A DNA stretch of 64,000 bases from Chloranthus sessilifolius (Eukaryota > Streptophyta > Magnoliopsida > Chloranthales > Chloranthaceae), in the NCBI GenBank assembly GCA_021018995.1, contig CM037593.1, positions 17,822,088-17,886,087 of the forward strand, written 5' to 3'. The position numbers and the translations under genes are program-made. A model generated the notes under the pieces. The model made no database searches, was not told the DNA's origin, and saw nothing but the letters and a program-made list of their open reading frames with translations. This document shows, in pieces, positions 2,017 through 64,000 of this stretch. Every line of letters begins with the position of its first letter. Positions within the stretch are counted from its first letter, which is position 1.

Positions 2017-2019
2017 GGG

Positions 2020-2560
2020 TTGATAGGAAGATTACAATTCATCATAAGATTCATCTCCCAACATTCAGATAGATGTGATCCTTTCTACAGACTACTTAAA
2101 GGAGGAACTGAGTATAAATGGGATGAGCAGTGTCAGCAAGCCTTAGATACTATCAAGAAGTACCTTCTTAACCCGCCAATATTATCACCACCAGTCCCTG
2201 AAAGACCCCTAATTCTATACCTCTCAATGAACGACAAAGCAATGGGAGTAATTCTGAGACAATATGAAGAAGACGGCAAGAGAGTCAAGGCTATCTACTA
2301 CCTCAGTAGGACAATAGTTGAATACGAACGAAAATACACTTCAATGGAGAAGACTTGCCTCACCTTAGTGTGAGCCTCTACTAAATTACGAAACTACTTC
2401 AGAGCACATAAGATACTAGTGCTAGTCCGAATGGACCCTCTGAAGTATGTATCGAAAAAGCACGCAATATCAGGAAAGATCGCTCGCTGGCATATGCTAT
2501 TGCAAAAATTTGACATCATTTATGTCATGCAGTAATCGATTAAAGGACAAGCAATCACTG
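2020..2560 (+). pseudogene. Tat-type RNase H connected to RT (decayed)
   Basis: This is the connection and ordinary RNase H domain following RT; it would degrade the RNA strand of the RNA/DNA hybrid. The frame 2020-2373 reads GLIGRLQFIIRFIS, the usual RT thumb/connection, then LILYLSMNDKAMGVIL and AIYYLSRTIVEYERKYTSME. In Tat elements this first RNase H is commonly degenerate, which fits the weak catalytic context. A stop at 2371-2373 and frame changes up to about 2530 break it; homology continues as the MDPLKYV segment near 2432-2450. Confidence 0.8.
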
Positions 2561-2604
2561 ATTACCTTGCAGATCTCCCACTCCCTAGTGATGAACCCAT
2601 ACAT

Positions 2605-3120
2605 GTGGATTTTCCCAACGAAGACCTATATACAATTCATAATGAAGAGCCCGATAAGACCTCATGGATCTTTTATTTTGACGGCGCTCTAAATCACAAA
2701 AGAAAATGCATCGGGATAGTCCTCCTGAGCACGGAAGGAGTTGTCATACCTAAAGCTTTTCAACTAGATTTCCCCGTCACTAAAAATGTCGCAGAATACA
2801 AAGCCTTTATAGCTGGACTACGAGCAACACTATAATTAAGTGTTAAACAGTTAAAAACTATCAGTGATTCCAAACTAGTAATTTCATAAGTCATAAAAGA
2901 ATGAAAAACTAAGGAAATGAGACTAATGGCATACCTAAAAACCGCTCAATATTTAGTAAAGAAATTTGAACGAATCTCTTTCACACACATCCCTAGATTA
3001 GAAAACGAGCTCACAGATTCCTTAGCCACATTAGCCTTGGTCAACCAAATACCCATCGGGCAAAGTATCAAGACCTTCTTCATCGAAAAGCTGAGAGTAC
3101 TTGCTCACGAGGTAGCATGA
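2605..3120 (+). pseudogene. Second (archaeal-type) RNase H of a Tat element, decayed
   Basis: Two frames, 2605-2835 and 2917-3120, encode WIFYFDGALNHKRKCIGIVL and then KNVAEYKAFIAGLRATL. This is the second RNase H-like domain known downstream of the first one in plant Tat-lineage elements. The first Asp (FDGA) and the AEYKA Glu are visible. A stop at 2833-2835 and a gap to 2917 disrupt it. Its presence is the strongest reason to call the element Tat rather than chromovirus. It is followed, after a short linker, by the insertion site of a solo LTR at 3304. Confidence 0.82.
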
Positions 3121-3298
3121 ACCGTCACCCGTCCTCCTCACAGGTACATGACCGAAAGAAGCAATCACTCCGGAAAAGCACGACAAGACAGAAATCGAAG
3201 TTGCCATGTTCAGATTTGAAAAATCACCGGCCGATGATAGATAATCGTGGTATTTCGACATCTAGAACTTCTTAAAATATCAACACGTCCCTCCATAC

Positions 3299-4748
3299 GC
3301 CACTGATCTGTGTCGAAATATGACTATATTTCGCACCCTAAATACTAACATTTAGCTATCCGATGAAGGCATTCTAACGGCTGCTGTATAGTTTTAGTGG
3401 TTTCAGGTGTTACGGACCGTGGGATGTTGAAGAGCTTAAGTGAATAAAATTAAGGGACTATATGAACTTTGGACCATGGAGCCAGCGGAAGCACTGAAAT
3501 CCGTGAAAAAGATTGATTGGTCTAGCCACAGTTTCGAGAGTTAAATATGTCACATGCCCATTTCAATCGATTGAGATTTGAAACTCAATCGATTGAGTTT
3601 AAAAAGTTGCCCAAAAATCAATAGATTGAATTTGGAATTCAATAGATTGATTTTCGAAAATCAATCGATTGAATTCCTTAAATTCAATAGATTGATTTTG
3701 GGAATGCAAATGAGCCACCAAAATTCAAATTTTGAATTCAATCGATTGAATTCAAAATTCAATCGATTGATTTCAAAATTCAATCTATTGATTCGGATAT
3801 GGAATAATTTTAGCCCGGGGCCCTATTTAAACAACAGGATGTTTAGTGTTCAGGGGGACTTCTGCTCGGTAGATTTTCTTAGGGCCTTTAGCAATTTTTT
3901 TTCTTTGATATTTTTAGTTTTGTATTTAGATAAAAAGCTGTGTAAGGTTGTGATCTTCTCCAAAAAGATCAAGCGGTTGATAAATAAAAGAGCAATTTTT
4001 GTGATGGCTTTCGATTTACATTGTGCGTGTGGATCAAGGATGAGCGGCTAAACCCCTCGTTCAAGGAGGAAGCGACCCCTAGATGAGTAACTAACTTACT
4101 TTTAAGCTTACAATTTCTTGTTAGAATTATTAAATCGTACGGCTTTTAGTGTGTGCTTCATTGTGTTATCATCGAATACTCGTTTATAGCCGTCGACCGT
4201 GTGATCGGCGACAATAAACGAACTATTCCACCTAGATCGATCTTATAGATCGATATAGGATGCCGTGCGGTTGATTCTTACGGTTGTGATTTCGAGTTTG
4301 AGATACGCTATGCCTTTCGCATGATGCATGCCGTGATTGGATGCGTCATAGTGTTCGGATAGGGTATGCCGAATCAATATTTGTATTTTCATCGATTCGT
4401 TTTTCTTGTAGTTAAATGATGGTATAATGATTTAACATGAAATTGTGTGGTTGATTGTAGAAAAGTTATAAATCTAGGGTTAGCAACTCCTTGATCATTT
4501 CATCATTGTTAATTTCTTAATCATAGTTCATCCGTGCATAGCTTGATTTAGTTCTTTTAATTATTGCATTGTGTAGTGGTAAATCTTGACAATGAAATTT
4601 CTCACCCTTGGTACTTCCTTGGGTCTTTGAAATCTCTTTAAAATTAATCTAATTTTGCCCTTCCCTGTGGGTTCGACACCCTTAATTTCGCCGTGCTACA
4701 ATCGAACTTGTGCACTTGCAAGGGTACACTTTAAAACCGATCAGCCAC
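3299..4748 (+). mobile_element. Solo LTR nested in Tat pol, perfect 5-bp TSD (copy 2)
   Basis: The LTR is 3304-4743 (1440 bp). It begins TGATCTGTGTCGAAATATG and ends TTTAAAACCGATCA. The 5 bp on its left (GCCAC, 3299-3303) are repeated exactly on its right (4744-4748). RNase H sequence lies on one side and integrase on the other, so removing the insertion and one GCCAC restores collinearity of the host element. A cluster of TCAATCGATTGA palindromes at 3563-3795 precedes a TATA-like box at 3823-3831. It is the product of recombination between two LTRs of a formerly complete element. Confidence 0.93.
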
Positions 4749-5481
4749 GAGGATCGAATGGAAGACTATAAGGAACCAATGCGCCTGATTCTGCATACTT
4801 GGCGAAACATTATATAAAGAGGCCTTCACTAAAGGAGTACTGCTACGATGCGTCAAGACTGTCGAAGGATAATATATCATCCGAGAAGCACACGCCAGCA
4901 CCTGCGGTGCCCACTCCGGTAGACAGAGGCTTGCCGATCAAGTTACACGATAAGGCTACTTCTGGCCGACCATAATTAGAGATTACTACCTCTATGTCCA
5001 ATCCTGCAGACAATGCCAAGAACATGCCGCACTCGTCAAAGCTCCATCAGTTGCATTGAATACTATGACTTTGTCATGGCCATTTTCGATATGGGCCTTC
5101 GATATCATTGGACCTTTCACAGACACAGTTGGAAACACTTATAAGCATGCGTTCATACTTACAACGACCGAATACTACACCAAATGGGCAAAAGCTGAAT
5201 CCTATATCAAAATCACTGCTTTAACACTTGTAAGGTTTATTGTTCAGAATATCATCACCAGATTTGGAGTACCCAGGATGTTTGTCACTGATAATGGACC
5301 GCATTTCATCATGAAGAACACAAAGTTATGCAAGCAATACGGCATTGATTTATGCCACTCATCACCATTCTACCCTCAAGGCAATGGACAGGCAGAAGCT
5401 ACGAACAAAATGCTGATTCGAATCCTGAAACGGACAAGTAATGGAGCCGACTGGCCTGAACGATTATCAAAATTACTCTGA
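4749..5481 (+). pseudogene. Tat integrase: zinc-binding and catalytic core (decayed)
   Basis: This is integrase, which inserts the cDNA into the genome. About 4843-5040 encodes an N-terminal HHCC-type region (REAHASTCGAHSG ... CRQCQEH) containing stops. 5056-5481 is an open core with the DDE triad in place: FDIIGPF, VTDNGPHF and NGQAEATNK. It continues the pol interrupted by the solo LTR at 3304-4743. The TGA at 5479-5481 ends the core prematurely. I see the family motifs directly; the lineage comes from the upstream dual RNase H. Confidence 0.85.
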
Positions 5482-29715: not shown

Positions 29716-31273
29716 TTATATTTTGGACTTATTGTGAGGTTGTTTTAAAGTTTTGTTTGTATTTGTTGGAGAAGGTTTAGTGTCAAGAGTTTGGTGTAGT
29801 AGTTTTGTCGCCGATTGGAGTTCTGTGAAGGTTTTGATCGTGAGGTCTACGAAAATCTTGATCTGGGGTTTGAATGGAATTCCAGTTGTATAGTCAATTT
29901 TATGTTGCGAGGTTTGAGAATTTGGCAATATGCTAATTTGGATGTTGATCGGACTTGTAAGATTCAAGTTAGGAGTGATGGAGTTTTTTATAGTTTATCG
30001 ATAGGTTCAATGGTTGATATTGATATTGTAGATGTAGATTCGATGACATATTCGGATTTGATGATAGGCTTAGTTTTGATAATGGGTTTATGTTTGATGA
30101 CAGGTTCGAGTTCAATGATGGGTTCAAGTTTAATGATGGGTTCGATTTTGACGATGGGTTCATGTTCAACGATAGGTTTGGATTTGTTGATAGTTTGAGG
30201 TTTGATGATAGGTTTGAATTCAATGATGGGTTCAGGTTCGATGGTAGGTTCAGGTTCGAGGATAGGTTTAAATTTGTTGATAGTTTGAGGCTTGATGTCA
30301 GGTTTGTATTCAGTGATCAGTTTAGGTTTGACGATAGGTTCGAGTTTGATGGCAGGTTCGCCTTTGATGGTGGGTCGAGCTTGTGGAGGGGTGTAGGGTC
30401 GATGATAGGTTCGAGTCTAGGTTTGACAATTGGTTTAAGTTCAATGATCGGTTTGGTTTCGTGTCCGATGGCAGGTTCAACTTCGATCATGGGTTTAGGT
30501 TCGGTGATAGGTTCATATTCGAGGATAGGTCTAGATTCGATAATAGGTTTAGTTTTGATTGTAGGTTTAAGTTTGATGATAAGTTTAGGTTTTATAATAG
30601 GTTTAGTTTTGATAGTAGGTTTAGGTTTGATGATAAGTTTAGTTTTGATAATAGGTTCTGTTTTGATAGTAGGTTTAGGTTTGATGATGGGTTTGATGGG
30701 TTTAGTTTTTATAATATGTTTGAGTTTGAGGCTCGGTGAGGTGATAAGTTCAGTGGTGAGTTTAGGTTTTGAGGCGACTGCAGAGATTGGTTTGAGAGTT
30801 GGTTTTGAGATCGGTTCAATGGTTGATTCTGAAATGAGTGAAATGGATGGTTCGGAGGTGTGTTTGATAACATATTCTGGTTCGAGATTTTGTTTTGAAG
30901 TTGGTTAGGTGGTAGTGAGTTTAGGTTCCGAAGTGGCCGTAGAAGTTAATTTAAGAGTTGATTCTGAGGTTAGTGGGGTGATTTGTTTGTTGTTGAGTTC
31001 AAGTTTTAAAACAGGTATAGGGATTGATTCAAGGACTGGTTTTGATATTGGTGGGGCAATGGGTTTGACAATGGGTTTGATTTCGGGGGTTTGTTTCATA
31101 GTTGATTTGGAAGCGAGAGAGCTAGTGATTTCAGGGTAGATTTGATTACTAGTTTGGGGTCAGAGTTTAGTTTTGTGATTGGTTTAAATATCAATGGCAT
31201 CGTATAATACAGATTAATTGATTTGAAAATTACTTCTAGAATCGGCACATGAGCCTATTCGGGGTAGTTTACA
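29716..31273 (-). pseudogene. Tat-element region encoding degenerate Pro/Lys/Ile repeats
   Basis: Reading minus, one frame gives long runs of a hexamer-like repeat, KPIIKxKPTIK and EPIIExEP, across most of 31100-29990. It is interrupted by a stop near 30904 and by a frame change near 30380. No Met begins the best frame. The first part, 31099-30905, is open (MKQTPEIKPIVKPIAPPISK). Simple-sequence expansion of about 18 bp (ATCAAACCTAAACCTACT) explains it. The other strand is also open but is a by-product of the repeat. It lies between the gag segment (36.9-36.1 kb) and the integrase tail, so it is likely gag-linker or an extra ORF. Confidence 0.5.
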
Positions 31274-41378: not shown

Positions 41379-41429
41379 CACATTTGAAAACCCATCCCAC
41401 CATGCTCCTTAGGTTTTACACATTTGACC
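41379..41429. repeat. 51-bp direct repeat, left copy, flanking the caulimovirid-like element
   Basis: Identical over 51 bp to 48519-48569. It begins CACATTTGAAAACCCATCCC and ends ACACATTTGACC. The two copies touch the outer ends of the 421-bp terminal repeats. It looks like duplicated target DNA. Confidence 0.92.
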
Positions 41430-41850
41430 ATAAAACAGAAATATATTAAACAACTTAAAACATAAGGAATATTACACTATACACACACTATGCAACTACT
41501 ATGCTGCTACTATGCATGCATTAAACAAATATATACAATGCTATGAGAAGTCTTACCGATATGCAGGACTTCTCCGATACACTCTTATACTAAAGAAAGA
41601 AAGAACAAGAGAGAATGAAAATACTCGGTGTGAATTTTCGGTGTCCTGGACAATCCCCAGGCTAACCCTTTTATAGATGGATGCGGACTTGAGGTGGTTT
41701 GGAATCCGCTATTGATTGATGAATGCGGACTTGAAGTGAATTGAAATCCGCCGCTGAGTGGGACACGTGTGCTGGGTGGATTGGTTGCAGTCGCTTCGTC
41801 CCTTGATAATTGTATTCTGACGTAAGGGCATGCGTCAGTGCTTCATAATT
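41430..41850 (-). repeat. Left terminal repeat (421 bp) of the caulimovirid-like element
   Basis: It matches 48098-48518 base for base apart from about three substitutions. It lacks TG...CA ends. On the minus strand it contains paired TGACG motifs (41818-41837), two 27-bp inverted-repeat modules (41725-41751 and 41683-41709) and TATAAAA (41675-41669). As the downstream copy it would supply the RNA 3' end. Confidence 0.92.
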
Positions 41851-41950
41851 GGAATGATGACTTCATGGACAGCTGGCGAGTATATTGGCCGACAATAATT
41901 AGTTGGATGACAGCTGCTTTATTAATTGATTTGTCTTTTGTGGCTGAACT

Positions 41951-43328
41951 TCATGGTTCTCTGTGATTGTCAAGATTCTGGTAAAATATTGAATCGCCAG
42001 ATAGGGAGCTATCCGAATCAGAGTTGTAAAGCTGATCTTCTTCTTGGATAGATGCTTCAATTTCTAAATTAGCAGGCAAATGGAGATTATTCCTGCTGAT
42101 CATTTGTTGGAGAAATTTTTCTGCTTCTTCTTCTTGTTGAGGAGTAGTCATATATTCCATAGGAAAATCGGTGAGGAAAATTCTTTGACCATCAGAAATT
42201 TTGAAAGCATAATGGTCCTTAGAAATTTCTCTTGCTCTGTGAGAAAATTGTATTAGGGAATGAATCCAGTAGGATTTGGGAGAGATTGACAGAGCACTTG
42301 ACTGTGCTAAAGGATCTGCTTGGTTGATATATTCCATTTCATATATCTGGGCTTTACGAAGAATCCAAATTTGATATGGTTGGAAGAATTGTTCTCTAGA
42401 TCGCCAGCCAAGAGTGCTAGTGATCAGAAAAGTAAGATAAATGCCTTTGCGTAAACATTTAGAGGCATGAAAAACCATGGATTTAATCATTCGGGGAAAA
42501 TTTGGAATATTAGAAAGTGGGAAAATAATTTGATTGATCAATCCCCAATCAAGACCTTGGGAAAGATTATGAAGATAATCAGGTGTGAACAAAGAAATTT
42601 TTGGGAGATAGTAACCCTGAAGGTGGTTGATAAATTGACAATTCTGCAAGAGGATTTGTTTGATTTGAGTAGCCGAATCCTCGACTTGAGATACAATATT
42701 TTGGGAAATATCAATTGGAAGAACATGTTTGACTTTTTCAAACATACAGATTCTTTTAAGACGATGCAGAATTGGATCATTTTGTTTTACCAATTCAATG
42801 AGGTTGAGGAAATAGGAAATTTTCTCAATGGAAAAGGTTTCTTCTTCCCAATTGAAGTTCTTGAGTAATGAGGTTAGGCCTTCATAAAGTTGTTGGGTAT
42901 GGGCTTCTTGAGCCTGAATTTTGGATGCCAGAATGCTCAAATGTTGTCTGACTTTTCTTTTATTATTGGCAACATGATTTTTCCATACGCCATTAATTTC
43001 TTGGTACATGGAGGACTCAATACGTGGGCTAATAAAATTGGGTATATGGCTAATGTTAAACATTTCTGATTTGGAGTAGTCTTTGATTTCCATAATAGGA
43101 GATGGTTTGATAGGTTTGAAAAGCAAATTTGCCTTCTCTGATGGAATTATACATTTGGTATAATGGGCTGGGAAAGTTATAAATTTGGCTATGGCATGAT
43201 TGCCATGAAGTGTATAATCCTGGTTGGTGTCCTCTGAGGACAACATAAACTTTTCTTTGTAGCGAGAAATTGTCCTCTGTTGAATTGGCTGTAGAAGAGC
43301 TTCCAGCAAGACTAGTCATCAGCTGCAC
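41951..43328 (-). pseudogene. Viroplasmin-type domain and unrecognised 450-residue C-terminal ORF
   Basis: The minus frame 43328-43056 (90 residues) contains KVYVVLRGHQPGLYTSW followed by FPSPLYQMYNS, the fold signature of the Cauli_VI/viroplasmin domain (also the N-terminal hybrid-binding domain of RNase H1). The adjoining frame 43309-41951 is open for 452 residues. It is helix-rich, with a coiled-coil-like segment near residues 115-150 and a Ser/Asp/Glu-rich tail. I do not recognise the fold of the long part. A frame change of this copy or two overlapping ORFs would explain the split. In caulimoviruses a viroplasmin/transactivator protein follows the RT-RNase H polyprotein; here it directly follows protease. 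Position and the domain suggest an ORF-VI-like role, not proven. Confidence 0.6.
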
Positions 43329-44265
43329 AACAAGTCGTGGTGATCTGGTGATTTCCTAATGTAGGATCACCGCATAAGTAGAAAACCACTAGATTAGTGG
43401 TATGCGAATGCTCATGCAAATAACCAATTCGATTAGTATGAGTAGTGTGAGTAGGATGATGACCCCCCCAGAATTGGGTATTGCGTGTAAGGGAGACACA
43501 ACAAAGATGAAGAAGGGAGCCCTCGGAAGGAGAGGAGAGAAAGTGGAATCGAAGGGGATGACCCTGAAATTGAGCAGAAATGCCTTGAGAATCAACCCTA
43601 GTAAAAGGAAAAATGGAAGAAATAAAAGGGACCCCTAAGATAAGGGTTTGAGTGATATTTGGGAGAATCACAAAGGAAGTGGGAATGGTTATATCATGAT
43701 GCTGAATAGCAGCATGGTTAAGTTTGTTGTGGATAGGTATGGGATATCCACTAGCATTGGTGAGACTTTGACAAGTGGAGGTTAAATAAAAGGAAGGAAC
43801 TAATCCTTCTTGAAGACAATTCATGTCAGCACCACTATCAATAAGGGCGATGATGTCATAAATTGTATAATTGGAACTAATTAATAAATTGACCTTGATA
43901 TACCATTTTGGGTAGGAGACCTGTTGGAGAGTATTCAGGTAAGAATGTGATGGAGAACTAGAAGAGACTTCTTTGTTTTCCAAATGATGGAGGCGATTAT
44001 TAATAGTGGAAATTTCGTTAGCAAATTGTTGCTTTAAAATTATTAATGCATTGTTGAGAGATTCTATTTGTTGTTGGAAATTGGCAACCATAGAAGAAGT
44101 ATGGGTAGAATTGGTCATCTGGTTAGAAGAATTATGGGATTCTAGCCGATGAAAGAGTTCTCTAATAGAGTAAGGATTTTCTACTATTAGAGACTTTCTA
44201 GTTTCTTTGTGAGCTGTAGATATACATGCTTCAATCAATTTGGATTTCATTATTGGTTTTATCAA
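43312..44265 (-). CDS. Caulimovirid-like aspartic protease region, RT absent
   Basis: An open frame of 317 residues. Residues about 60-95 form a heptad-like coiled coil (QQQIESLNNALIILKQQF). Residues about 120-225 are a retropepsin: KWYIKVNLLI, catalytic ALIDSGADMNCL, flap region SGYPIPIHNK and the LILGVPFI hydrophobic-Gly motif. The protease would process the polyprotein. The frame ends at 43312 after a His/Thr-rich stretch of about 60 residues that has no RT motif. In complete caulimovirids the reverse transcriptase and RNase H should follow here. The N-terminus overlaps the preceding CCHC frame, so this copy is a piece of a longer polyprotein. Confidence 0.75.
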   Translation of the reverse strand: MIKPIMKSKLIEACISTAHKETRKSLIVENPYSIRELFHRLESHNSSNQMTNSTHTSSMVANFQQQIESLNNALIILKQQFANEISTINNRLHHLENKEVSSSSPSHSYLNTLQQVSYPKWYIKVNLLISSNYTIYDIIALIDSGADMNCLQEGLVPSFYLTSTCQSLTNASGYPIPIHNKLNHAAIQHHDITIPTSFVILPNITQTLILGVPFISSIFPFTRVDSQGISAQFQGHPLRFHFLSSPSEGSLLHLCCVSLTRNTQFWGGHHPTHTTHTNRIGYLHEHSHTTNLVVFYLCGDPTLGNHQITTTCCAADD

Positions 44266-45052
44266 CTAAGTCCAGTAACGATTGTTGGGATTCAGAAAGA
44301 ACATTAATACTAAGATTATTCATGGCAGCAAATGCTTGCCAAGAATCATTCGAAGTATGAATATGATTACAATTGCAATTTGCAGGGTGGTCATCTGCAG
44401 AGGAGGAAGATGACGAAGTGGAATGAATATCATTATCAGACTCAGAAAGTTCTGAATAATCAGGACTCGAATCTAAACAGATTTTTGAAAGGGTTAATTT
44501 CAGTCCTTCATCATGAATTTGATTTATTCTTTGTGCAATTATTGGCATAATGACCAAATCGATGACATTTGTAACATTTAATTTCTCTTTGGGGTCGATT
44601 TGTTGAGTTTCTTCTTTTCTCACGATATTTGCGTGAAAAAGAAAGATTCCTGGGTTCTCGATGTTGCCGAGTAGAATTTCTTTTTTCGCGATGTTGTGGA
44701 TGAGAAGAAGGATTGTTAGTTTGTTTGAAAATACGACGACGTCTTTCAGAGGGACGATGATAACTTGAGATTTCTCTATTATCTCTTCCTTTTGAAGGAT
44801 AATTGATTTTTGTGTCATAAGCAAATTGGTCACAAAATTCTCCCAATTCCTTTCGACCAGTAAGTTGTTGTTGTTTTAATTGTTGGTGTAATTTTAAGTC
44901 ATTACACAAAGTTAATCCTTCACGCACAATGATACTTTGGAGTTGCCCATAAGTATATTGATTGTAAGTGATACTTTAATCATCAGGATTACGGAGTTTA
45001 TTACGGACCTTCTCAGCAAATAAACTGGGAAGTCCATCAATGAATTTGGCTT
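44231..45052 (-). pseudogene. Coat protein C-terminus with CCHC zinc knuckle (frame-broken)
   Basis: After a break at 45053 the coat protein carries on in another frame: FIDGLPSLFAEKVRNKLRN, YGQLQSIIVREGLTLCND, then a basic arm (RRRRIF) and the zinc knuckle CYKCHRFGHYANNC (pattern CX2CX4HX4C) in 44927-44511. A Ser/Asp-rich acidic tail with CNCNH and INVLSESQQSLLDLVDK follows in the overlapping frame 44833-44231. The wording fits nucleic-acid-binding coat proteins of plant pararetroviruses. An in-frame TAA near 44977 and at least one frame change break it. Confidence 0.7.
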
Positions 45053-46399
45053 TCAATATTGATTGGCATCACTACGTTGCATGACCTTTGTCATAAACAC
45101 ATCTTTATACCATCTAAAGTGGGTTAAAGATGGACAACGGAGATTTTGAAGTAGCTCTCTACTTCTTTCATATTGAAGATTCCAAGAACCTACAAAATGA
45201 AAAATTATGGTTTGGGTCAATGTATAAACTGCATCTTCCCTAGTTTCCATTAAGCCAGTAAGGTCATTTTTGACTGGTTTAGTTGAAGTTAGGATTTCTT
45301 CACTTTGAGTGGCTGTGAGAACATTATCCCACCATCCTTTCAACATACCAGAAAATCCAGTAGTAATATATCGAGCAATTGTTTGATCAGAATTTTGATG
45401 TTGTTTTAAGATGGTACTGTACATGAAAATTTTATGTAGAACAGCAAAAATCCCGTATTCAGATTTACCATCAATGTTCCATTCATAAATGGATCGATAA
45501 TCATAAGAATTTTGAATATCGATATGATCTTCTTCATAAAGAAGATCCTGAGGTGTAGGTCTATGGTAGTAATATCGAGTATTACCACCATCCCAATTAT
45601 ACTGGAGTTTATTAAGCTCCATGCTATTTTGTAAGGATTCGAAATTATTTTGAATTTCTTGTATTTCTGCTAAATTGGCATTTTCTCTATCAGTCAATAC
45701 ATTAATTTGAAAATTATTGTTTTTCTTTTCTGGATTGAGTGATAAAGAGTGTAACCTGGAGGTTAGTTTATCAATAAATTCCTCTTGCTTTATCATATAA
45801 GATTTTGATGACAGATTTAGTCCAGAAATTTCTAGAGGAGGTTTGATGTTTGGTTGTTCGACCTTTAAGGTTGATATTTTGTTTATTGGTGGAGAAGAAA
45901 GAATATTTTCAATCCTATTTAATTGCATACTAATTGTCTGTAAATTTAAATTAGTAAAATTATTTTGCTTATATAGATGGGATAAATCAACTTTTGTTGA
46001 ATGAGGGATCGGTTCAACAGGTTTGATGAAAGCAGTGGCTTCCAAAGTAGCTGTTGTATTAGGTTGAGTAAGTTTGAGGGCTTCAACAGGAGGATGAATC
46101 GACTGAATGATTGAACCATCAAGCTTCTGCCATTCCTTTTGAAAGTCCTCAAGGAGAAATATTCTCCTTTCCTCTTGATTCATTTCAAGATAATTTGTTG
46201 CTTTGAACCAAGTAACAAATGGAATTACTTGGTAAAAAGTTTCAATATATTGATAAAATTGTTCTTTGAATTTTTGCAATTACGATGCGAGAAAATTTTT
46301 AAAATACCATTCACGGAATGGTGCATATTTATCTTGCTGAAATTCAGCATTGATTTCTTGTCTATTGATTACAAAGTTTTCTAGTTTTATAAAAGCCAT
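45053..46399 (-). pseudogene. Caulimovirid-like coat/gag protein, N-terminal and central part
   Basis: It starts at ATG 46399 (MAFIKLENFVINRQEINAEF) with a TAA after 39 codons (46282-46280). It is then open for 408 codons to 45053. The central region has the conserved particle-protein wording DQTIARYITTGFSGMLKGWWD and FVGSWNLQYERSRELLQNLR, followed by LTHFRWYKDVFMTKVMQRSD. The rest of the coat protein follows in another frame at 45052. The stop at codon 40 and the shift at 45053 are the main lesions. Its job is to form the particle around the genome. Family placement is by motif reading. Confidence 0.7.
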
Positions 46400-46524
46400 A
46401 AAACTTTTATTAATGGATTGAGAAATTCATCTCGCTAGCAGTAGGGGATTCCCTCTGCTGTTGGGTATATATCCCATGAGGAATCTGTTGTTCAGAAACT
46501 TGGATTCCTTCCAGATTGGGTTGA

Positions 46525-47472
46525 TTAAATTCGGAAGAGCGGATGAGTTAGCTTACGAATAAGATGATCGAGCGATGAGGGTATAGATACTCTATAAGGA
46601 CCTCGAGACCTCGTATCAGAAGAAGAACTCCTATAAGAAGTTCTGTGAGATGTAGATCTATCGAATTTTAAGATTACATCTCCCTGGGTATTTTGAACAA
46701 TTTGTTCAATTTCTTGATTTAAAATTGGTTTAGGTGAGACAACTTGAGGTATACTCCAAGCGTCAGGAAAAGCAATATTTTCCCATTCACATAATTTTCG
46801 TGTAGCAACATTAGTGGTTGCACTATTAGTCTCGATTAAGACTGTTCTTCCTGGTTCATTTTGATAATTAATTTTAGGAATCAGAGAAGTCATTACCTTA
46901 TAATGAAGGCGATAGATCAGAGCAATGGTCTCTGATCCAGGCATAAAATTGTATCCCTCAGTTTGGAGATGAAGGGTACAAGCATGAAAAATATTTTTAT
47001 CTGTTAAAGATAAAGTTAAATTTGGGAAAACATTGTAGTATACTGGACCAAGGCACAAGCTGGTCTCAATAGCAGCCATCAGAGAAGATTGCCAATCAAG
47101 GCATCTAGCATCTCTGAGAGTGCTAAGTATACTAGTATTTTCAAGACCCAATAAGGTCAAAGGTTTGAATGCAACTTGAATGCATCCTAAATGAAGAAAT
47201 TTGAAACTATGAAGGTCATGTAAAAGATCTTCGTTAGAAAGTAATTGAAAACCTTTATTTTGACTTTCTTCATTTATACTGAGAGTTTACTCAGTAGTTT
47301 TGATTGACATGTCGGTGGACCAATCTTTCCATCCATATTGATAGATTGTTTTAGGATTGATGGAAGGAATTGTCCATCTATTTAATTGGTTTTGTTGGTC
47401 ATCAATTTGAGACCATTTATCTAATTGTTTATTTTTTATTAATTTTTTGGAGGGAAAATTAAAAAGAGACAT
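46525..47472 (-). pseudogene. 30K-superfamily movement protein, caulimovirid type
   Basis: The frame runs from ATG 47472 (MSLFNFPSKKLIKNKQ), with one TAA at 47289-47287, to a stop just before 46525. The core shows SLCLGPVYYNVFPNLTLSLTD and a later GYNFMPGSETIALIYRLHYK, typical of the 30K movement-protein fold found in plant viruses and Caulimoviridae. Movement proteins open plasmodesmata for cell-to-cell spread. The C-terminus is Ser/Arg-rich. A T-run of about 20 bp (47490-47511) lies just upstream. A movement protein is a strong argument for viral origin, since ordinary plant LTR retrotransposons lack one. Confidence 0.82.
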
Positions 47473-48000
47473 AATTGATGAATTTTGATTTTTTTTTTTT
47501 TTTTTTTTTTTAAATTTTAAAACAGTAAAAAGAAAGGGTAAAAGAGCTTTTGATAAAACCAATAAGACTGTAATTACATATAGGAATAGTAATGTTGGAA
47601 TAGTTTTACTATAGTGAATAGTGATTCGGAATACTATTCATCAGCATAGTAAATTACTATTTACCTTCTTCTCCATAAATTTCTATGGACTTCTTAAATT
47701 CATTTAGATTTACCGTTGTAAAATCAAGCGTCTCATTCACCGACTTTTACGGGGAATCAATCGGCAACAACGCAATCCCTGCTACAATGCCATCAAGTCA
47801 TCCCAACGCGACTTCCCACGCTGCCACAGCATAGTAGTAAATCTAAACAGACCATTATAAGTCATCCATAAAAACCACTGAAGAAGACGATGAACAGTAG
47901 TTCATACGCCCATGATTAGCCACCCTAATCACGACTCACTACCTCTCAAGATTCCAACACTAGCCACCCGCCATATGTAATTACCACGGGCTTAGTCGGA

Positions 48001-48016
48001 CATGGCTTTGATACCA
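48001..48016 (-). other. Primer-binding site, initiator-Met tRNA
   Basis: The minus strand reads TGGTATCAAAGCCATG. It matches the complement of the plant initiator methionine tRNA 3' end (TGGTATCAGAGCCATGG) over 15 of 16 bases. It lies 81 bp after the end of the right terminal repeat, not directly next to it as in LTR retrotransposons. Confidence 0.88.
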
Positions 48017-48097
48017 AACTCAGAGTAGGGGGAAGACGTGGTTGCGGAAGACAAGGAAGCACACGGGAAGAAACTCTAATGCATAAACAAATGACTA

Positions 48098-48518
48098 ATA
48101 AAACAGAAATATATTAAACAACTTAAAACATAAGGAATATTACACTATACACACACTATGCAACTACTATGCTGCTACTATGCATGCATTAAACAAATAT
48201 ATACAATGCTATGAGAAGTCTTACCGATATGCAGGACTTCTCCGATACACTCTTATACTAAAGAAAGAAAGAACAAGAGAGAATGAAAATACTCGGTGTG
48301 AATTTTCGGTGTTCTGGACAATCCCCAGGCTAACCCTTTTATAGATGGATGCGGACTTGAGGTGGTTTGGAATCCGCTATTGATTGATGAATGCGGACTT
48401 GAAGTGAATTGAAATCCGCCGCTGAGTGGGACACGTGTGCTGGGTGGATTAGTTGCAGTCGCTTCGTCCCTTGATAATTGTATTCTGACGTAAGGGCATG
48501 CGTCAGTGCTTCATCATT
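48098..48518 (-). repeat. Right terminal repeat (421 bp) with promoter
   Basis: This is the upstream copy for the minus-strand genes. Between its outer end and the TATA box are paired TGACG motifs (48505-48486), two 27-bp inverted repeats (48419-48393 and 48377-48351) and TATAAAA at 48343-48337. It resembles a pararetrovirus genome promoter placed ahead of the primer site and movement protein. Identity with the left copy is about 99%. Confidence 0.92.
48486..48505 (-). promoter_or_regulatory. as-1-like element (paired TGACG)
   Basis: TGACG and its inverted partner CGTCA enclose TAAGGGCATG. The TGACGTAAGGG half matches the as-1 element of the CaMV 35S promoter, which is bound by TGA-type bZIP factors. 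It is about 145 bp upstream of TATAAAA. Confidence 0.75.
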
Positions 48519-48569
48519 CACATTTGAAAACCCATCCCACCATGCTCCTTAGGTTTTACACATTTGACC
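48519..48569. repeat. 51-bp direct repeat, right copy
   Basis: Perfect partner of 41379-41429; see that entry. Confidence 0.92.
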
Positions 48570-57109: not shown

Positions 57110-57454
57110 CATTAATACTAGAGGCAGATAATTCATGAGTGGTGGTCTGGTGTTTGGAAAGCTCCTACCCCAAAAGTCAAAATATTTGGCTGGAGCTTTG
57201 CCTGGGGCCATATCCTTAATGTTGATCAGCTTCTTTTTATTCATTGCTTTGTTGCTAGTGATAATTGGGTAACTATCTATCGGTTGTTCAATAAAAGTTG
57301 GGGTCAGCCTGAAGACCATACACAATTGTTGAATATGTGCGAGGGTGTACAGATTGAAGACACTGCAGTCTCTCTTTGGAGGGCATCTCTTTGCTGTTTT
57401 CTGGGCTATTTGGAGAAAAAGGAATAGAATCTTGCAGAGAAATGGTAAACCAAT
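57110..57454 (+). pseudogene. LINE (L1-type) 3' fragment with zinc-binding RT domain
   Basis: The plus strand reads WWSGVWKAPTPKVKIFGWSF, then LNVDQLLFIHCFVASDNWVT, and further on a LWRASLCCFLGYLEKK segment. This is the zf-RVT type region found at the C-terminus of plant L1 reverse transcriptases. Frames change near 57340 and 57420. It is cut by the chromovirus LTR at 57455. Confidence 0.72.
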
Positions 57455-58364
57455 TGATGCGGGACAAGGACCCTAAACTACGTGATTGCTATGATTTAAT
57501 TAATTGTCGAAATTAAACTAAATTAATTAAGCAATAAACTTGAAAATAATGCGGATATCTTCGGGTTTTGTAGTTTTCCATTGGGAAAATCGTGCTAGAT
57601 GTGAGTAGGGTCCAGTCCGTGCCCTAAATTCGTTAGATTCGCGGTGTAGATCGGTCTAGAGGTAGAACTCTAGTTATTCCAGATTAGGGCGCCGCTCGGG
57701 ATTCAATGTTGGAGTCGCGAGTGCTCTAAGGGTTCTGATTCGGGTTGGTTTAATGGCTCAGATAAAATCTGGGCTTGAATCGGATTGATTCAGGGACTCA
57801 GATGGGATCTAGGATTTATAAACTTCGGGGTATTTAAAGGTGGGGTGACTGATTTGAGGATTTAGGGGATTGGATCGAATCAACGGTACAAATTTAGGAA
57901 TTTTAGGAAAAGTTAATGGCTGGATTTACAGTTTATGGGATCAACAAGCAGAGAAAAAAATAAAATAAAGAGATAGATAGAAGATAGATTTTGTGGGCTT
58001 CACACCCTTGGCTTCACACCAAACCCTTCTCGGGAAGCGAAGATTCACTCTTCATGGAGGCTCATCTCAAGCACACAAGCAAAAACTTTTTTTTCATTCA
58101 ATAATCAACTCCTTACATTAATTTTTAAAAGACCTTATATAGGAGGCCTCAAAAATAAAACCCTAAAACAAAAGTAAACACAAAGAAAGACAAGTTTTCC
58201 CCTAACAATTTAAATTCGAATTCTGGTCACATGCCAGTCAATCGATCAACTCTTGGTTTTCGATCGATTGACTTATATGTATGTTGCCAGAATTAAATCT
58301 TCAAAGGCCATAGTCAATCGATCGAATTCCCAGAGTTGATCGATTGACTGGCATTGGTCCAGCA
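57455..58364 (-). repeat. 3' LTR of the chromovirus
   Basis: It starts TGATGCGGGACAAGGACC and ends GGTCCAGCA. The first part matches the right LTR from 63430. Palindromes TCAATCGATCAA/CGATCGATTGA (58238-58350) lie upstream of the minus-strand TATA CCTATATAAGG (58143-58133). The right end is set by the TGCTGG start on the minus strand and could be a few bases off. Confidence 0.82.
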
Positions 58365-58376
58365 TGCTGATTTCTT

Positions 58377-58660
58377 TTAAGTCGGGTTTTGATCTCTGTT
58401 TCCGTTCTGCTTCTTCCGACGCCGGTACATGCGAAACTGTTCGCATCCAATGTCTACAATGTTGGCGTCCTCACCAATTCTCCTAGGCCGAAAAGGATTC
58501 ATCACCGATGAAGCGGCGTGGTGATAGTGATCGAACACGTCGGGGTCCAAGCATCGCACCTCGTCTTCAGTTAACCACGTATTCTCGGAGTCCTGCTTTC
58601 CCATCCACTTGACCAAGTATTTCTGAAACCCTCCACCATGCGTGGATACCATAAAATCAT
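58377..58660 (-). pseudogene. Chromodomain at the end of chromovirus integrase
   Basis: The frame 58652-58377 has FQKYLVKWMGKQDSENTWL then LDPDVFDHY, a chromodomain, and ends in a basic tail (RRRKKQNGN). The chromodomain tethers integrase to histone marks and defines chromoviruses. Stops between 58660 and 58690 separate it from the integrase C-terminus. Confidence 0.85.
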
Positions 58661-59760
58661 CAAGTATCCCTTCAATTTCATCTCTCCTCTGCTTACGTGG
58701 GGAAAGGAATGGTAGAGGTTGCAGGGTGGGGCTGGGGGTTTGGGCTCGGGGTTGCTTGGAAAGGGTTGGTAGGGGGTGGGGTTGAGCCCAAAGAAGGAAT
58801 TAGGTTCTCCACATTGAACGTAGAACTGATCCCAATATTCGGCGGAAGTTCGAGAGCATGCGCATTAGGCACGCTCCGTGCCACAATTCTAAAAAGCCCA
58901 GCGCCGCGGGCTTGGAGCTTCTTCGTGACTCCCGATGGGAATCATTCAGGCCTAACCCGAACCATCACATAATCCCCCACTTGGAATTCTTTGAAACGCC
59001 TATACGCATCCGCAGTTACCTTGTAATGTTCATTGCTTGAATTAATTTTTTGTCTAATTTCGATGTGCAAGTTATGAATGTGTCCGCGGACTCAGACACT
59101 CGATATGATGCAGGCATGAGGATTAAATCTAATGGTGTCCTTGGCCTATGTCCATGTACGACCTCAAATGGACTCATGCCTAGGGACCTATTGACAGAGT
59201 TGTATGCAAACTCGGCTATTGGTAATGTAGAATCCCAAGTCCTAATATGATCACCGACTAGACAACGAAGGAGATTACCTAAGCTCCTATTGGTGACTTC
59301 CATTTGGCCATCGGTTTGAGGATGATAGGCCAAAGAAAACTGGAGCATGGTATCCATCATGTGCCATAAAGTTTTTCTGAAGTAACTAGTGAACTTCATG
59401 TCCCGATCCGACACAATAGTTTTGGGTAACCCATAGAGACGCACAGCCTCCCCGAAAAATAATTTGGCTATGTGAGTCGCATCAGAGGTTTTAGGGCAAT
59501 GTATGAAGTGGGCCATCTTAGAGATGCGGTCCACCACCACAAAAATGGAATCGTGCTTCCGTTGGGTCTTGGGAAGTTCGAGCACGAAATCCATAGATAT
59601 GTCTTGCCAAGGGATGTGTGGCATGGGTAACGGGGTGTACAAACCTGTATTTTGTTTAGTTTGTTTGGCCACTTGGCATGTACAACATTGTTTCATGACC
59701 CGTGAAACATCTCTCATAAGGCTAGGTCAATAAACCTATCCTCAACGAGCGCAATGGTCT
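58661..59760 (-). pseudogene. Chromovirus integrase (decayed)
   Basis: Frame 59717-59016 carries CCTCQVAKQTKQNTGLY, the core DFVLELPKTQRKHDSIFVVV, the second Asp VSDRDMKF, and YHPQTDGQMEVTNRSLGNLL with the catalytic Glu. The GPF-like stretch 59015-58690 follows, with FQVGDYVMVRVRPE and a stop after RPE. Stops at about 59729-59740 separate it from the N-terminal zinc region. The DDE triad is present, but the whole polyprotein is not open. Confidence 0.88.
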
Positions 59761-60420
59761 TGTTGCGCCCAAAAGGCTTGCAATCCCTCCGGCATGTAAC
59801 TCCCAAATGAGAAAGTCACGCAATGAGGTGCGAGGGATGCATAAGCGATTTCCTTTAAACAGATACCCATCTTGCAGGGTATACTTGGAGTTAAGGTTGT
59901 TCGGATTATCAAGAAGAGCAGTGTAATCCGGCCCAAAATCTGGGCACTCAGGTAGTCTTGTTTCAACTGCTCAAATCCAACAACCTCAGTGCTCATAGTG
60001 CGCAAAGTCATCACCTGTCGATTAAGTGCATCAGCTGCCTTGTTCTCAGCACTGGCCTTATGCTTTAACATGAATGTGAACCCTTGAAGGTACTCGACCC
60101 ACTTTGTGTGTCTCGGGTTCAACTTTTTCTGTGAGGCAAGGAAGCGTAGGGCTTCATGGTCAGAAAATAACACAAATTCCTGCAGTCTCAGGTAATGCTT
60201 CCAATACCAAAGAGATCAGACGACTGCATAGAACTCCTTATCATAGGTGGAGTATTTTTGTTTCGCCTCATTAAGCTTCTCGCTAAAATAGGCCACGGGG
60301 TGGCCCTCTTGGCTAAGCACTTCGCCTATTCCTACACTCGACGCGTCACATACTACTTCAAAGAGTTTAGAAAAGTCGGGTAGACGCATGACGGGTGCAG
60401 TGCTCATTTTTTCCTTTATC
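59761..60420 (-). pseudogene. Chromovirus RNase H (decayed)
   Basis: The minus strand shows [20 protein letters not shown] and [13 protein letters not shown] (60407-60216), then DHEALRFLASQKKLNPRHTK and AENKAADALNRQ (60173-59742). These are the usual RNase H motifs, with Asp, Glu and Asp in place. Stops near 60210 and 60175 break it. Confidence 0.86.
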
Positions 60421-61400
60421 TCGGTAAAGGCTCTCGTCGCAGTTTTGCTCTATTGAAACTCTCATTTTCTCATACAATCGGTAACAGGAGCCATAATGGT
60501 GGTAAAGTTCTGGATGAAGTGACGATAGAATGTGGCCAATCCATGGAAGCTACGGGCATCATGAATATTCCTAGGCTTGGGTCATTCCACAATGGCTTAA
60601 ACCTTCTCGGGGTCCACAACCATCCCATCAGCCGAGACAATGAATCCTAAGAATACAACAGATTGTTGCATGAATGTACATTTCTTGAGATTCACATATA
60701 ACCTTTCTCCCCTCAAGGTTTCCCAAACCATCCTTAGGTGGATGATGTGTTGTTCTTTGTCATGACTGTAAATCAAAATGTCGTCAAAGTATACGACAAG
60801 GAATTTGCCGAGAAACGGCCTCAACAATTGGGTCATGAGCCTCATGAATGTGCTCGGGGCATTTGATAGCCCCAAAGGCATGACCATCCACTCATAAAGA
60901 CCATCCTTGGTCTTGAAGGCTGTTTTTCACTCATCGCCAGACGCGAATGCGAACTTGATGGTAGCCACTTTTAAGGTCTATCTTGGAAAAGATAGTGGCG
61001 CCAACCATCCTATCAAGCATATCGTCGAGCCTTGATATGGGAAATCGATATTTAACCGTAATCTTGTTGATCGCACGACTATCCACACATATGCGCCATG
61101 TACCATCTTTCTTAGGAGTGAGTAGGGCGGGTACGACACACGGCTGAAACTTTCTTGGATGAACCCCTTTTGAAGGAGTTCATTGACTTGCCGAGTCAAT
61201 TCGGCGTGCTCAACCGGATTTAACCTGTAATGGGGTAGGTTTGGTAGGGTAGATCCGGGAACCAAATTGATTGCGTGTTGACTGTCACGCATGGGAGGAA
61301 GCTCGTTGGGTAAGTCTTCGGGGAAGACATCCGCAAATTCATTCATGATTGGCTCGACGTCCTTGGGGTACTCGCTTACTGACTCAGGAGCACTCTCAAC
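60421..61400 (-). pseudogene. Chromovirus reverse transcriptase (decayed)
   Basis: Frame 61532-60978 carries the protease-RT linker and LPPMRDSQHAINLVPGSTLP, the usual entry to chromovirus RT. Frame 60887-60597 carries [17 protein letters not shown] and the catalytic [10 protein letters not shown], followed by [18 protein letters not shown]. Frame changes near 61100 and 60930 break it. Confidence 0.88.
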
Positions 61401-61950
61401 GGTGACAACTACGTACACCACACTCTCATCTAACGATGCCTTTTTGAATTCTAAAGGACTCACAATGTTAATGGTCTTGGATTGACCGCCCTTCTTCTCG
61501 ACTTTGTTGGGCGATGGTGTTTTGGGAGCCAAAGGGTAAGAGTGATTTTCTTGCCCTTATAATTGAACGTGTAAATGTTAGATCGGCCAAAAATGGTCAC
61601 GTTCAAGTCGTAGAGCCATGGTTTTCCCAAAATGATATGGCCCACATCTATCGGCACCACATCGCACCATAAGGTGTCAGAATACGAACCCAATTGTATT
61701 GGTACGTGACACTTTTGAGACACGGGAATGGATGAGGAGTCGACCCATGCGACCTTGTATGGTCTCGGGTGGGCTTCGGGTGCAAGCCCTAAGCGGGTGA
61801 TGGTATGATTTGACACCACATTGGTGCAGCTTCCGCTATCCACGATAACCCCTACAACTCTTTGTCCCACATGTAACGAAGGTGTGCAAGATGTTCTCCC
61901 TTCGCCAATCCTCCTTTTCATCCCGTTGAGGTTGTGCAAAGGCACACCTT
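61401..61950 (-). pseudogene. Chromovirus aspartic protease (decayed)
   Basis: The frame 61945-61460 has VVGVIVDSGSCTNVVS (catalytic DSG), CHVPIQLGSYSDTLWC and GHIILGKPWLYD. It joins gag above and RT below. It is open as a stretch, but the preceding zinc knuckle is in a different frame. Confidence 0.86.
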
Positions 61951-63098
61951 ACAACTAGAGCACGACCCATGTCATCACCTTCCTCATCACTATGTGTGGC
62001 GTTCGGCTCAAAAACCTCTTCTTCAAAAACTCCGTCATCCTCGTTGCCCTCTCCCTCGACGTAGAGATTCCTTTGCAGGTTTTTCTTAGGGCATTAGGCG
62101 ACAAAGTGTCCCAACTCTTGACAGTTGTAACACTTAATGTGGGAGCCACCTTTCGAGGATTCTCCTACCACACCCTTTCCTTTGTCAAACCGCACATCGG
62201 ATGTGGATTGTGTGAGTTTGGGGGGTGGGTTTCCAGCACTACTCCTCACCTCGCCGGTACAAGGTTGATCGATATGAGACTCAGATTGCCTCACCATCAT
62301 CATTTTCAAATATCGTTCAAGGTCTTGAACGACGGTATAACATTCGGTGAGAGTCTCAACGGGGTGAGAGACTAACTCTTTTTACAAGTCAAACCTCAAT
62401 CCGGTGCGAAATCTGGATAGAGTGACTTGGGGGTCTTCAGACACTTTGGCTCTCATCATGAATTCTTCAAATTTGCCAATGTAATCCGCTACGGGCATAC
62501 TATCTTGGCGTAGATTTTGTCATTGATCGAGGAGACGATGGTAGTATGAGGAATGAACGTACTTCTCTGTAAGTCGCTCCTTCATGTCCTTCCAACGGGT
62601 AATGGGAGCACATCCCGCATTCATTCTGATGCGCTCAACGTTGACCCAAAAGAGTCGGGCTTGACCAATGAGTTTCATTTTTGCGAGCCTGACGCATCGC
62701 TCATCACTAATGCTAAACTACTCAAAGAGTTAATCCATATCGGATAACCAATCGAGGAAGACTTGAGGGTCCATCCTCCCATCGAAAGTTGGGAACTCAA
62801 CTCGGACATTTTTAAAGAGTTTCCCTTCCGGATCGTGGTCATCTCCACGATGATCCATCCTATGATTGCGGTTCCGATCATGTTGATAACCATTGCGTTC
62901 GAAACGTGGACCGTTATGTTCACGACGCTGCTCAAGGTAATCGTCATTCTCATCTAACTGATTGACTCGTTCTAGCAATCTCCCATCGGAAACCTCAAGG
63001 TTTCTTTAGGCTTGTTCCATGGCAGCCATTCGATCATTGATTGCTTTCAAATCGGCTCTCATGCCATTAAGAACATCGGAAATCCCATTCATGTCCAT
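61951..63098 (-). pseudogene. Chromovirus gag with CCHC knuckle (decayed)
   Basis: It begins at ATG 63098 (MDMNGISDVLNG). A stop follows about 30 codons in. It continues LLERVNQLDENDDYLEQRRE, then VEFPTFDGRMDPQVFLDWL (62978-62730). The core VADYIGKFEEFMMRAKVSED and the knuckle CYNCQELGHFVA with a stop just before the last Cys appear near 62500 and 62115. Stops and frame changes are frequent. Gag would make the particle. Confidence 0.82.
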
Positions 63099-63413
63099 GG
63101 TGACCACAGCTATTTAATACGGGTTCTAAATGGGTATGCAAATATGGACTACAATGAAAGAAAATTTTTATCGAACACAAGACGTGCACACTTTTGACCA
63201 TAACTGAAATAAATGCAAAGAAAAGTGAAATGGAATAAATCAAAGAGTATTAGTCAATCGATTGATATCGAAAAGTCAATCGATTGACATTGAAGGCTTT
63301 GTCGGGATAAACAAATAGATTCAATCAAAATCAATCGATTGAATAAGAGTACTCGATCGATTGACACCAAAACAGTGAATATGCCACACAACATGCCCTA
63401 ACCTAGCACTTAG
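63099..63413 (-). other. Leader between primer site and gag
   Basis: Contains palindromes TCAATCGATTGA-type at 63253, 63283 and 63340. No gene. Confidence 0.6.
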
Positions 63414-63425
63414 GCTTTGATACCA
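63414..63425 (-). other. Chromovirus primer-binding site (initiator Met type)
   Basis: The minus strand reads TGGTATCAAAGC, 11 of 12 bases matching the initiator-Met primer site. It is 4 bp from the LTR end at 63430. Confidence 0.8.
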
Positions 63426-63429
63426 AAAC

Positions 63430-64000
63430 TGATGCGGGACAAGGACCCTAAACTACGTGAATACTATGATTTAATTAATTGCCGAAATTAAACTAAATTA
63501 ATTAAGCAATAAACTTGAAAATAATGCGGATACCTTCGGGTTTTGTAGTTTTTCATTGGGAAAATTGTGCTAAATGTGAATAGGGTCCAGTCCGTGCGCT
63601 AGATCCGTTAGATTCACGGTGTAGATCGGTCTAGAGGTAGAACTCTAGCTATTCCAGATTAGGGCGCCGCTTGGGATTCAATGTTGGAGTCGCGAGTGTT
63701 CTAAGGGTTCTGATTTGGGTTGGTTCAATGGCTCGGATGAAATCTGGGCTTGAATCAGATTGATTCAAAGACTCAGATGGGATCTAAGATTTATAAACTT
63801 TGGGGTATTTAAATGTGGGGTGACTGATTTGAGGATTTAGGAGATTGGTTCAAATCAACGGTGTAGATTTAGGAAAAGTTAATGGCTGGATTTAAAGTTT
63901 ATGGGATCAACAAGCAGAGAAAAAATAAAAATAAAGAGATAGATAGAAGATAGATTTTGTGGGCTTCACACCAAACCCGTCTCAGGAAGCGAAGATTCAC
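63430..64000 (-). repeat. 5' LTR of the chromovirus (cut by the window end)
   Basis: TGATGCGGGACAAGGACC repeats the start of the LTR at 57455. The two copies differ by a few per cent and have small gaps (for example CACACCCTTGG present only on the left). The rest lies beyond the window. Confidence 0.88.

Follow-up and report, generated by a model that had tools for sequence, protein, structure and literature searches.

A 64,000-nt stretch of the Chloranthus sessilifolius genome (the window; contig C10: 17,822,088-17,886,087 in a 2.17-Gb genome) carries on its minus strand an integrated, over-length element that very probably derives from an endogenous caulimovirid with a genome in two components (bipartite), of which it would represent component B. 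Component B contains a movement protein, a coat region, a protease and a viroplasmin-type open reading frame (ORF), is without reverse transcriptase (RT)-RNase H, and has its promoter, leader, movement protein and coat N-terminus in common with an RT-bearing component (A), with one sharp boundary in the coat. Component A, read at other loci of the same genome (L numbers), comprises a divergent protease, the coat ends without the core, RT, RNase H and a second ORF of its own.

Pfam domains were found along the minus strand in the order MP, DUF7746, zf-CCHC, RVP protease and Cauli_VI (Table 1), bearing out a preliminary description of this DNA in which a movement protein, a CCHC coat protein, a DSG protease and a viroplasmin-type domain had been recognized on that strand. 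DUF7746 was matched at 8.3e-30 and, judging by its neighbouring domains in relatives, probably represents the coat, while the zf-CCHC match (4.8e-4) scored 20.5 bits against a cutoff of 20.8. The Cauli_VI region also matched an RNase HI chain (1qhk) at 3e-5; comparison of coat and protease with solved structures gave nothing credible. As such, the movement protein, CCHC coat and retropepsin characteristic of Caulimoviridae are present, with the RT-RNase H of that family missing from the element and carried by the partner component.

The absence of RT and RNase H was considered by unfiltered hmmsearch, in which a profile built from ten RT-bearing relatives from other plants was compared with all stop-to-stop pieces of at least 20 residues in the window. 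Within the element, the profile matched the protease alone (profile positions 23-264 of 774), in agreement with the earlier observation that neither domain lies between protease and viroplasmin. Above-threshold RT or RNase H matches in the 64 kb were confined to 1.2-2.4 and 60-61 kb, in Ty3-type elements. The gap separating the protease from the viroplasmin domain, previously given as about 150 bp, measures about 250 bp, as protease similarity extends to near 43,503 and Cauli_VI begins near 43,253. Here, the protease frame continues as a tail of about 63 codons, and its stop codon overlaps the beginning of the last ORF. No relatives of this tail were found among 142 fetched proteins. A frame-shifted likeness between the tail and the terminal part of Saponaria protein P0087, a gene model in another frame, was dropped. 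So was the open tail of the window copy as proof of coding, as such openness arose by chance in 4% of shuffles; a test across 30 copies was used instead.

The frames of movement protein and coat are interrupted in the window copy by several frameshifts and by three or more stops. The last ORF is frameshifted as well, and that of the protease runs uninterrupted. Relatives P0003, P0125 and P0133, some of them gene models, fuse two or three of the movement protein, coat and protease domains. A database search with the 452-aa ORF returned no relatives from 3,150 candidates, scans of viral contigs with the coat, a Pol alignment, a coat alignment and ORF4 likewise returned none, and Rfam gave no matches over the window. 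A single-sequence AlphaFold2 model of the 452-aa ORF (mean pLDDT 34) was not used.

Table 1. Features of the element and its flanks, in window positions.
Feature	Position	Strand	Remarks
Integrated element	41,430-48,518	minus	7,089 bp; caulimovirid, over-length circle
51-bp flank, left copy, target duplication	41379..41429	.	identical to 48519-48569
Terminal repeat, downstream copy (promoter part and transcript start region)	41430..41850	-	direct repeat
Remaining promoter region, one side only	41851..41950	-	common to RT loci from about 41900
Viroplasmin-type ORF (Cauli_VI and about 400 aa), frameshifted in window copy	41951..43319	-	Cauli_VI 2.2e-11
C-terminal tail of protease ORF, replacing RT-RNase H	43312..43503	-	end overlaps next ORF start, ATG 43317-43319
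Pre-protease stretch and aspartic protease (DSGAD)	43503..44265	-	RVP 1.6e-5; profile of RT-bearing relatives E 8e-48
Coat region: DUF7588, DUF7746, CCHC; several frames broken	44231..46426	-	Pfam
Stretch common to both components: leader, movement protein, coat N-terminus	46014..48097	-	leader shared with few RT loci
Movement protein frame, one internal stop	46525..47472	-	Pfam MP 3.5e-9
Structured leader with 20 listed short ORFs	47532..48307	-	folding compared with shuffles
tRNA-Met primer-binding-site-like TGGTATCAAAGCC	48004..48016	-	2 in window against 0.00 expected from shuffles
Terminal repeat, upstream copy	48098..48518	-	direct repeat
51-bp flank, right copy	48519..48569	.	identical to 41379-41429

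Other copies of the protease-tail-viroplasmin junction were sought in the genome with a 551-bp probe. All of the best 40 of 324 first-look candidates, which were scored (39 full-length, one over 536 bp), cross the junction; they include the window, lie on 13 contigs and, for the 39 others, are 84-99% identical to it. Confinement of the junction to this locus, which would have told against the earlier interpretation, is therefore not seen. When 30 junction loci, the window's own among them, were read for frame, 26 had protease and tail in the same open frame and 21 had the viroplasmin domain in one open frame with the next ORF part, but none had tail and viroplasmin domain so joined. What had been described as a viroplasmin domain and a separate 452-residue ORF is hence one ORF in other copies, being a single open frame of 473-474 aa in L017 and L021.

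Mismatches among the other copies, 29 in all and 27 in the case of the promoter stretch, were next sorted by codon position (1/2/3), with matches more than 97% identical to the window being excluded. Mismatches accumulate at third positions in the protease (186/164/443) and ORF4 (259/205/666), a pattern that is weaker in the tail (122/174/240) and Cauli_VI (49/62/85). By contrast, the non-coding promoter and repeat, serving as control, presented no bias (116/138/118, p 0.30). Since the copies are related, the p-values from these counts are not to be taken literally. Together, the 39 other scored matches and the third-position bias argue that the absence of RT is no one-off deletion, and the bias suggests that the RT-less form multiplied with its proteins in use. 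Loss of RT after integration, or multiplication of component B by segmental or tandem duplication in the host alone, would be in keeping with the five head-to-tail B junctions at C11 97.36-97.39 Mb; yet the same junction on so many contigs, at identities down to 84%, the codon-position bias and the tail held in frame with the protease render this explanation very improbable.

RT-bearing relatives in the genome were then considered, using Solanum protein P0107 as query. The best 52 of 92,379 first-look candidates were scored (53-59% identical to the query) and 30 were read, each with 1.5 kb per side. Protein profiles detected RT and RNase H in all 30 (by selection), the coat N-terminus in 26 and CCHC in 28. 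The coat core was found in none of the 30, whether as DUF7746 or as the conserved coat domain. Each of the 30 shares DNA with the window element: the movement protein is matched in 29 (best 73-97%), coat pieces in 27, the protease in 25 but over short stretches alone (70-83%), the promoter in seven (84-97%, that of L039 coming from an adjoining B fragment) and the leader in four. In 24 of the 30, similarity to the window ends at 46,013/46,014. In L041, L042, L046, L050, L054 and L068, whose 3' side extends as far as the promoter, similarity to the B promoter resumes near 41,900, about 1.4-1.5 kb behind RNase H. The second ORF of the partner, located behind RNase H, has no Pfam match (L042), and the 1.5 kb behind RNase H in all 29 other RT loci match L042 at 71-97%. 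In some RT loci, such as L042, one open frame runs from the coat N-terminus into RT. Estimated from L042 alone, the A unit is about 6.55 kb, as compared to 6.67 kb for B. A second A lineage, at 71-74%, is seen in L047 and L056. In L043, the matches are to 65 nt of the protease and to B fragments standing apart from it; in this locus, two successive tail-viroplasmin fragments adjoin the RT locus on the opposite strand.

The preliminary description had proposed a split or a helper-dependent pararetrovirus. The former is retained here. The latter would make of component B a satellite-like derivative dependent on an autonomous, one-piece caulimovirid with both RT and coat, for which eRTBVL2 and the autonomous eRTBVL offer a published precedent (PMC5491270) and for which a common regulatory region would suffice. 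It is less supported, and indeed improbable, as none of the 30 RT loci, 29 of which have a B-like movement protein, keeps the coat core, and as the codon-level constraint on the protease and viroplasmin ORFs would be needless for a pure parasite.

RT-carrying elements with the same 421-bp termini, as envisaged earlier, were likewise found. From 713 first-look candidates for the repeat, 41 rows were scored, two of which are the window element itself; one row is a short piece and the remaining 40 are complete or almost so. Eighteen of 38 other full termini were classified from short stretches, with RT itself lying outside them: seven are A-type, adjoining the partner second ORF (L004, L006, L007, L008, L072, L076 and L081), 10 adjoin the last ORF of the RT-less form and one is undecided. 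In two A-type cases, L006 and L072, a scored RT match stands directly behind the partner second ORF. Promoter, repeat and leader continue at 91-99% in L006, and the first 93 and 140 leader bases are shared by L004 and L008, respectively, at 90-95%. In the best A/B pairs, the 421-bp repeat is 93-94% identical (A-type L004, L006-L008) and the movement protein up to 97%, although not all pairs are so high; these best pairs exceed the marks of conspecificity given for A and B in PMC4241990, namely, >90% intergenic and >87% movement protein identity. Of the 40 B junctions, eight have one of the 52 RT loci no more than 50 kb away (for two, no more than 10 kb), where uniform placement would predict 0.1 pairs.

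The RT-less termini fall into two lineages, with one beside a B1 last ORF (96% to the window) and nine beside B2 (71-73%). At the B2 locus L003 (C15:63337385-63340805), the repeat is 98% and the movement protein 97% identical to the window, whereas the last ORF is only 72% so. This mosaic suggests that the regulatory region was exchanged or homogenised between B lineages, as reported for grasses (PMC5491270). Among other B loci, the five RT-less junctions at C11:97364708-97392763 share one strand, are 6.7-7.1 kb apart and 97-99% identical to the window, and form a head-to-tail array as in local amplification or multi-unit insertion. Near this array, at C11:97330226-97343517, are three B2 termini spaced 6.44 kb apart. 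The B2 locus L069 is rearranged.

There is about an even chance that the genome was split into two near-equal circles, in which A held the replicase and its own second ORF and B held the coat core and a viroplasmin/transactivator-type protein gained in place of RT-RNase H, a division of labour not met with in the literature searched, that a single regulatory region kept passing among at least two B lineages (last ORF about 72% identical) and A, and that the leader, rather than common gene descent, defined the partnership. In the two-component reading itself, both circles would have been transcribed from the same promoter, and the RT of A could have copied both pregenomic RNAs via the common leader and primer site. 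The coat of B would have packaged both A and B, and the viroplasmin-type protein of B may have served both, as an inclusion-body or translation factor. A and B would have depended on each other, with the viroplasmin-type protein acting in trans.

Several points weigh against a two-component virus. Leader and movement protein are in line with RT in L061 only, where the coat N-terminus is also in line, while the leader pieces in L039, L058 and L065 are inverted or belong to a neighbour. In L062, a further 96 nt match the coat linker at 71%. Neither tblastn nor hhalign (probability 0.1%, with a shallow B profile) detected a relation between the last ORF of B and the second ORF of A, in contrast to the published component B. 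Because only the best-scoring RT loci were read (30 of 52), an autonomous virus in one piece could have escaped notice. Copies share ancestry, such that the codon-position counts are not independent, and frame-breaking indels outnumber others in the protease (33 vs. 4) and ORF4 (97 vs. 35); as most indels are not multiples of three (33 of 37 and 97 of 132, respectively), the integrated copies appear to be decaying. Finally, expectation from uniform placement ignores the clustering of insertions, and clustering may have other causes.

The structure of the insertion was also addressed. From the repeat-to-repeat spacing, the circular unit is 6,668 bp. The two terminal repeats differ at three of 421 bases, and assuming a rate of 6.5e-9 to 1.3e-8 substitutions per site and year, the insertion is roughly 0.2-0.55 million years (My) old, with Poisson limits of 0.02-1.6 My (2-3 repeat differences). 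Re-mobilisation, read from young termini alongside many frame lesions, was dropped, the counts being too small. The minus-strand promoter includes TATAAA at 41670-41675 and a TGACG/CGTCA pair within 41818-41837, which we take to be as-1-like. Because the promoter continues beyond the repeat on one side and the primer-binding site lies 81 bases away from the repeat, the terminal repeats probably reflect overlap of an over-length circle and not long terminal repeats (LTRs). We infer that the element entered when an over-length molecule was captured at a staggered break, without integrase, which would account for the overlap of 421 bp as well as for the 51-bp duplication of the flanks; the latter fits such capture better than it does integrase action. 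Rice work on flank duplications of this sort is cited in PMC7407515. It is scarcely credible that the element is an LTR retrotransposon with captured viral genes: direct terminal repeats and a flank duplication are what such an element would have, but so would be a primer site abutting the LTR, a short target duplication and an integrase, whereas here the primer site is 81 bases inward of the repeat, the duplication is 51 bp long, the promoter extends past the repeat, a movement protein and coat domain are encoded and Pfam scanning of eight ORFs gave no integrase match.

A further Caulimoviridae trait is the tRNA-Met primer-binding site within a structured leader bearing short ORFs. The site in the element differs by one mismatch from TGGTATCAGAGCCA, given in PMC4411674. 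On the assumption that the TATA box marks the transcript start, a leader of 838 nt is predicted. It folds far more strongly than its shuffles (z -7.8, 0/20), as do 776 nt of it (z -7.1, 0/100). In raw folding energy, however, several other 838-nt stretches of the window are lower, to -298 vs. -236.5 kcal/mol for the leader, which speaks against a special leader fold. The main hairpin comprises leader nt 290-767, with the primer site (nt 295-307) at the base of its ascending arm. In the shunt layout of Caulimoviridae, a short ORF closes just ahead of the hairpin; here the final one upstream stops at nt 235, leaving a gap of about 55 nt, and none ends directly before the hairpin. The same placement of the primer site, on the ascending hairpin arm, is described for the florendovirus PpersV-sc1, with the site being downstream of the structure in most genera listed in the same article (PMC5902531).

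Elsewhere in the window, a minus-strand Ty3-type LTR element spans 57452-63972, with terminal repeat blocks that are 94-97% identical, a primer-site motif beside the LTR (63413-63425) and RT/RNase H pieces at about 60.0-61.4 kb. A second Ty3-type element, on the plus strand at 1246-5481, includes RT pieces (1246-2532) and an ORF judged by eye to be integrase-like (4954-5481). A minisatellite with an 18-bp basis (30024-30908) has a strong skew of G over C and long open frames on both strands.

Relatives were found in many angiosperms, with 102 coat and 42 protease/RT matches corresponding to the 142 distinct proteins. Nearest to the coat are proteins from Rhododendron and Camellia and one unnamed protein, in a 25-row tree with no well-supported set. 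Of 25 proteins in which the protease and its end were matched, 18 continue into RT and seven stop within 25 residues; the search was limited in length, and its hits are gene models or ORFs. In four Saponaria officinalis proteins (P0087, P0103, P0104 and P0105), assigned by name to different chromosomes, mid-protease is joined to late RNase H without RT, and two of these also run on to a second ORF. These proteins could represent an RT-less form or, explaining them equally well, predicted introns.

Divided genomes are common among plant RNA viruses. For extant Caulimoviridae, no such genome is reported in the available text of PMC4241990; PMC10377300, where a sugar-beet case is cited, treats bipartite caulimovirids as fossils only, and 'bipartite' is unmentioned in the available text of PMC13308828 (2026). 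The present element would add a further fossil case, with selection being visible on the RT-less half and a viroplasmin gene located there, and opens to testing the frequency of and reasons for such divisions of the genome, as well as the question of whether leader sharing alone keeps a pair together.

The complementarity of A and B is the pattern known from bipartite florendoviruses, for which the names components A and B were introduced (Geering et al., 2014; PMC4241990), and from non-autonomous pararetroviruses (PMC5491270). As in the former, component B has MP-CP-AP (movement protein, coat protein and aspartic protease) without RT and a size within 5.5-6.9 kb, the coat is deleted in partner A, the intergenic region and movement protein are shared, and A and B are found near each other in the genome. 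Unlike here, published florendovirus B ends in an extension homologous to ORF2 of A, of which tblastn and hhalign detected no counterpart in the element, and is missing only an N-terminal RNase H1 portion (PMC4241990). Component B of the present case keeps no RNase H; its last ORF is separate, carries a viroplasmin domain and could not be related to the second ORF of A. With ePVCVL/ePVCVL2 and eRTBVL2 (Chen et al., 2017; PMC5491270), it shares many RT-less fossils with regulatory sequence common to a partner, that partner being coat-less, proteases that are dissimilar, a regulatory region far more alike than the rest and, as in eRTBVL2, replacement of RT/RNase H by another domain. In eRTBVL2, this is 'SFKTE', of unknown function, rather than Cauli_VI and about 400 aa. 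Cotton eCPRVE (PMC10458927), like Caulimovirus and Soymovirus, also has a viroplasmin-type ORF towards the close of its coding region but keeps RT. PMC5902531 sets genera with TAV apart from those with an MP-CP-RT polyprotein, with no TAV homolog recognized in Florendovirus or Petuvirus. As far as the literature was searched, with most subscription papers lying outside that search, what is new here is a viroplasmin (RNase H1 N-terminal) ORF on an RT-less component, without detectable relation to the second ORF of the partner, and the presence of two such lineages with one homogenised regulatory region.

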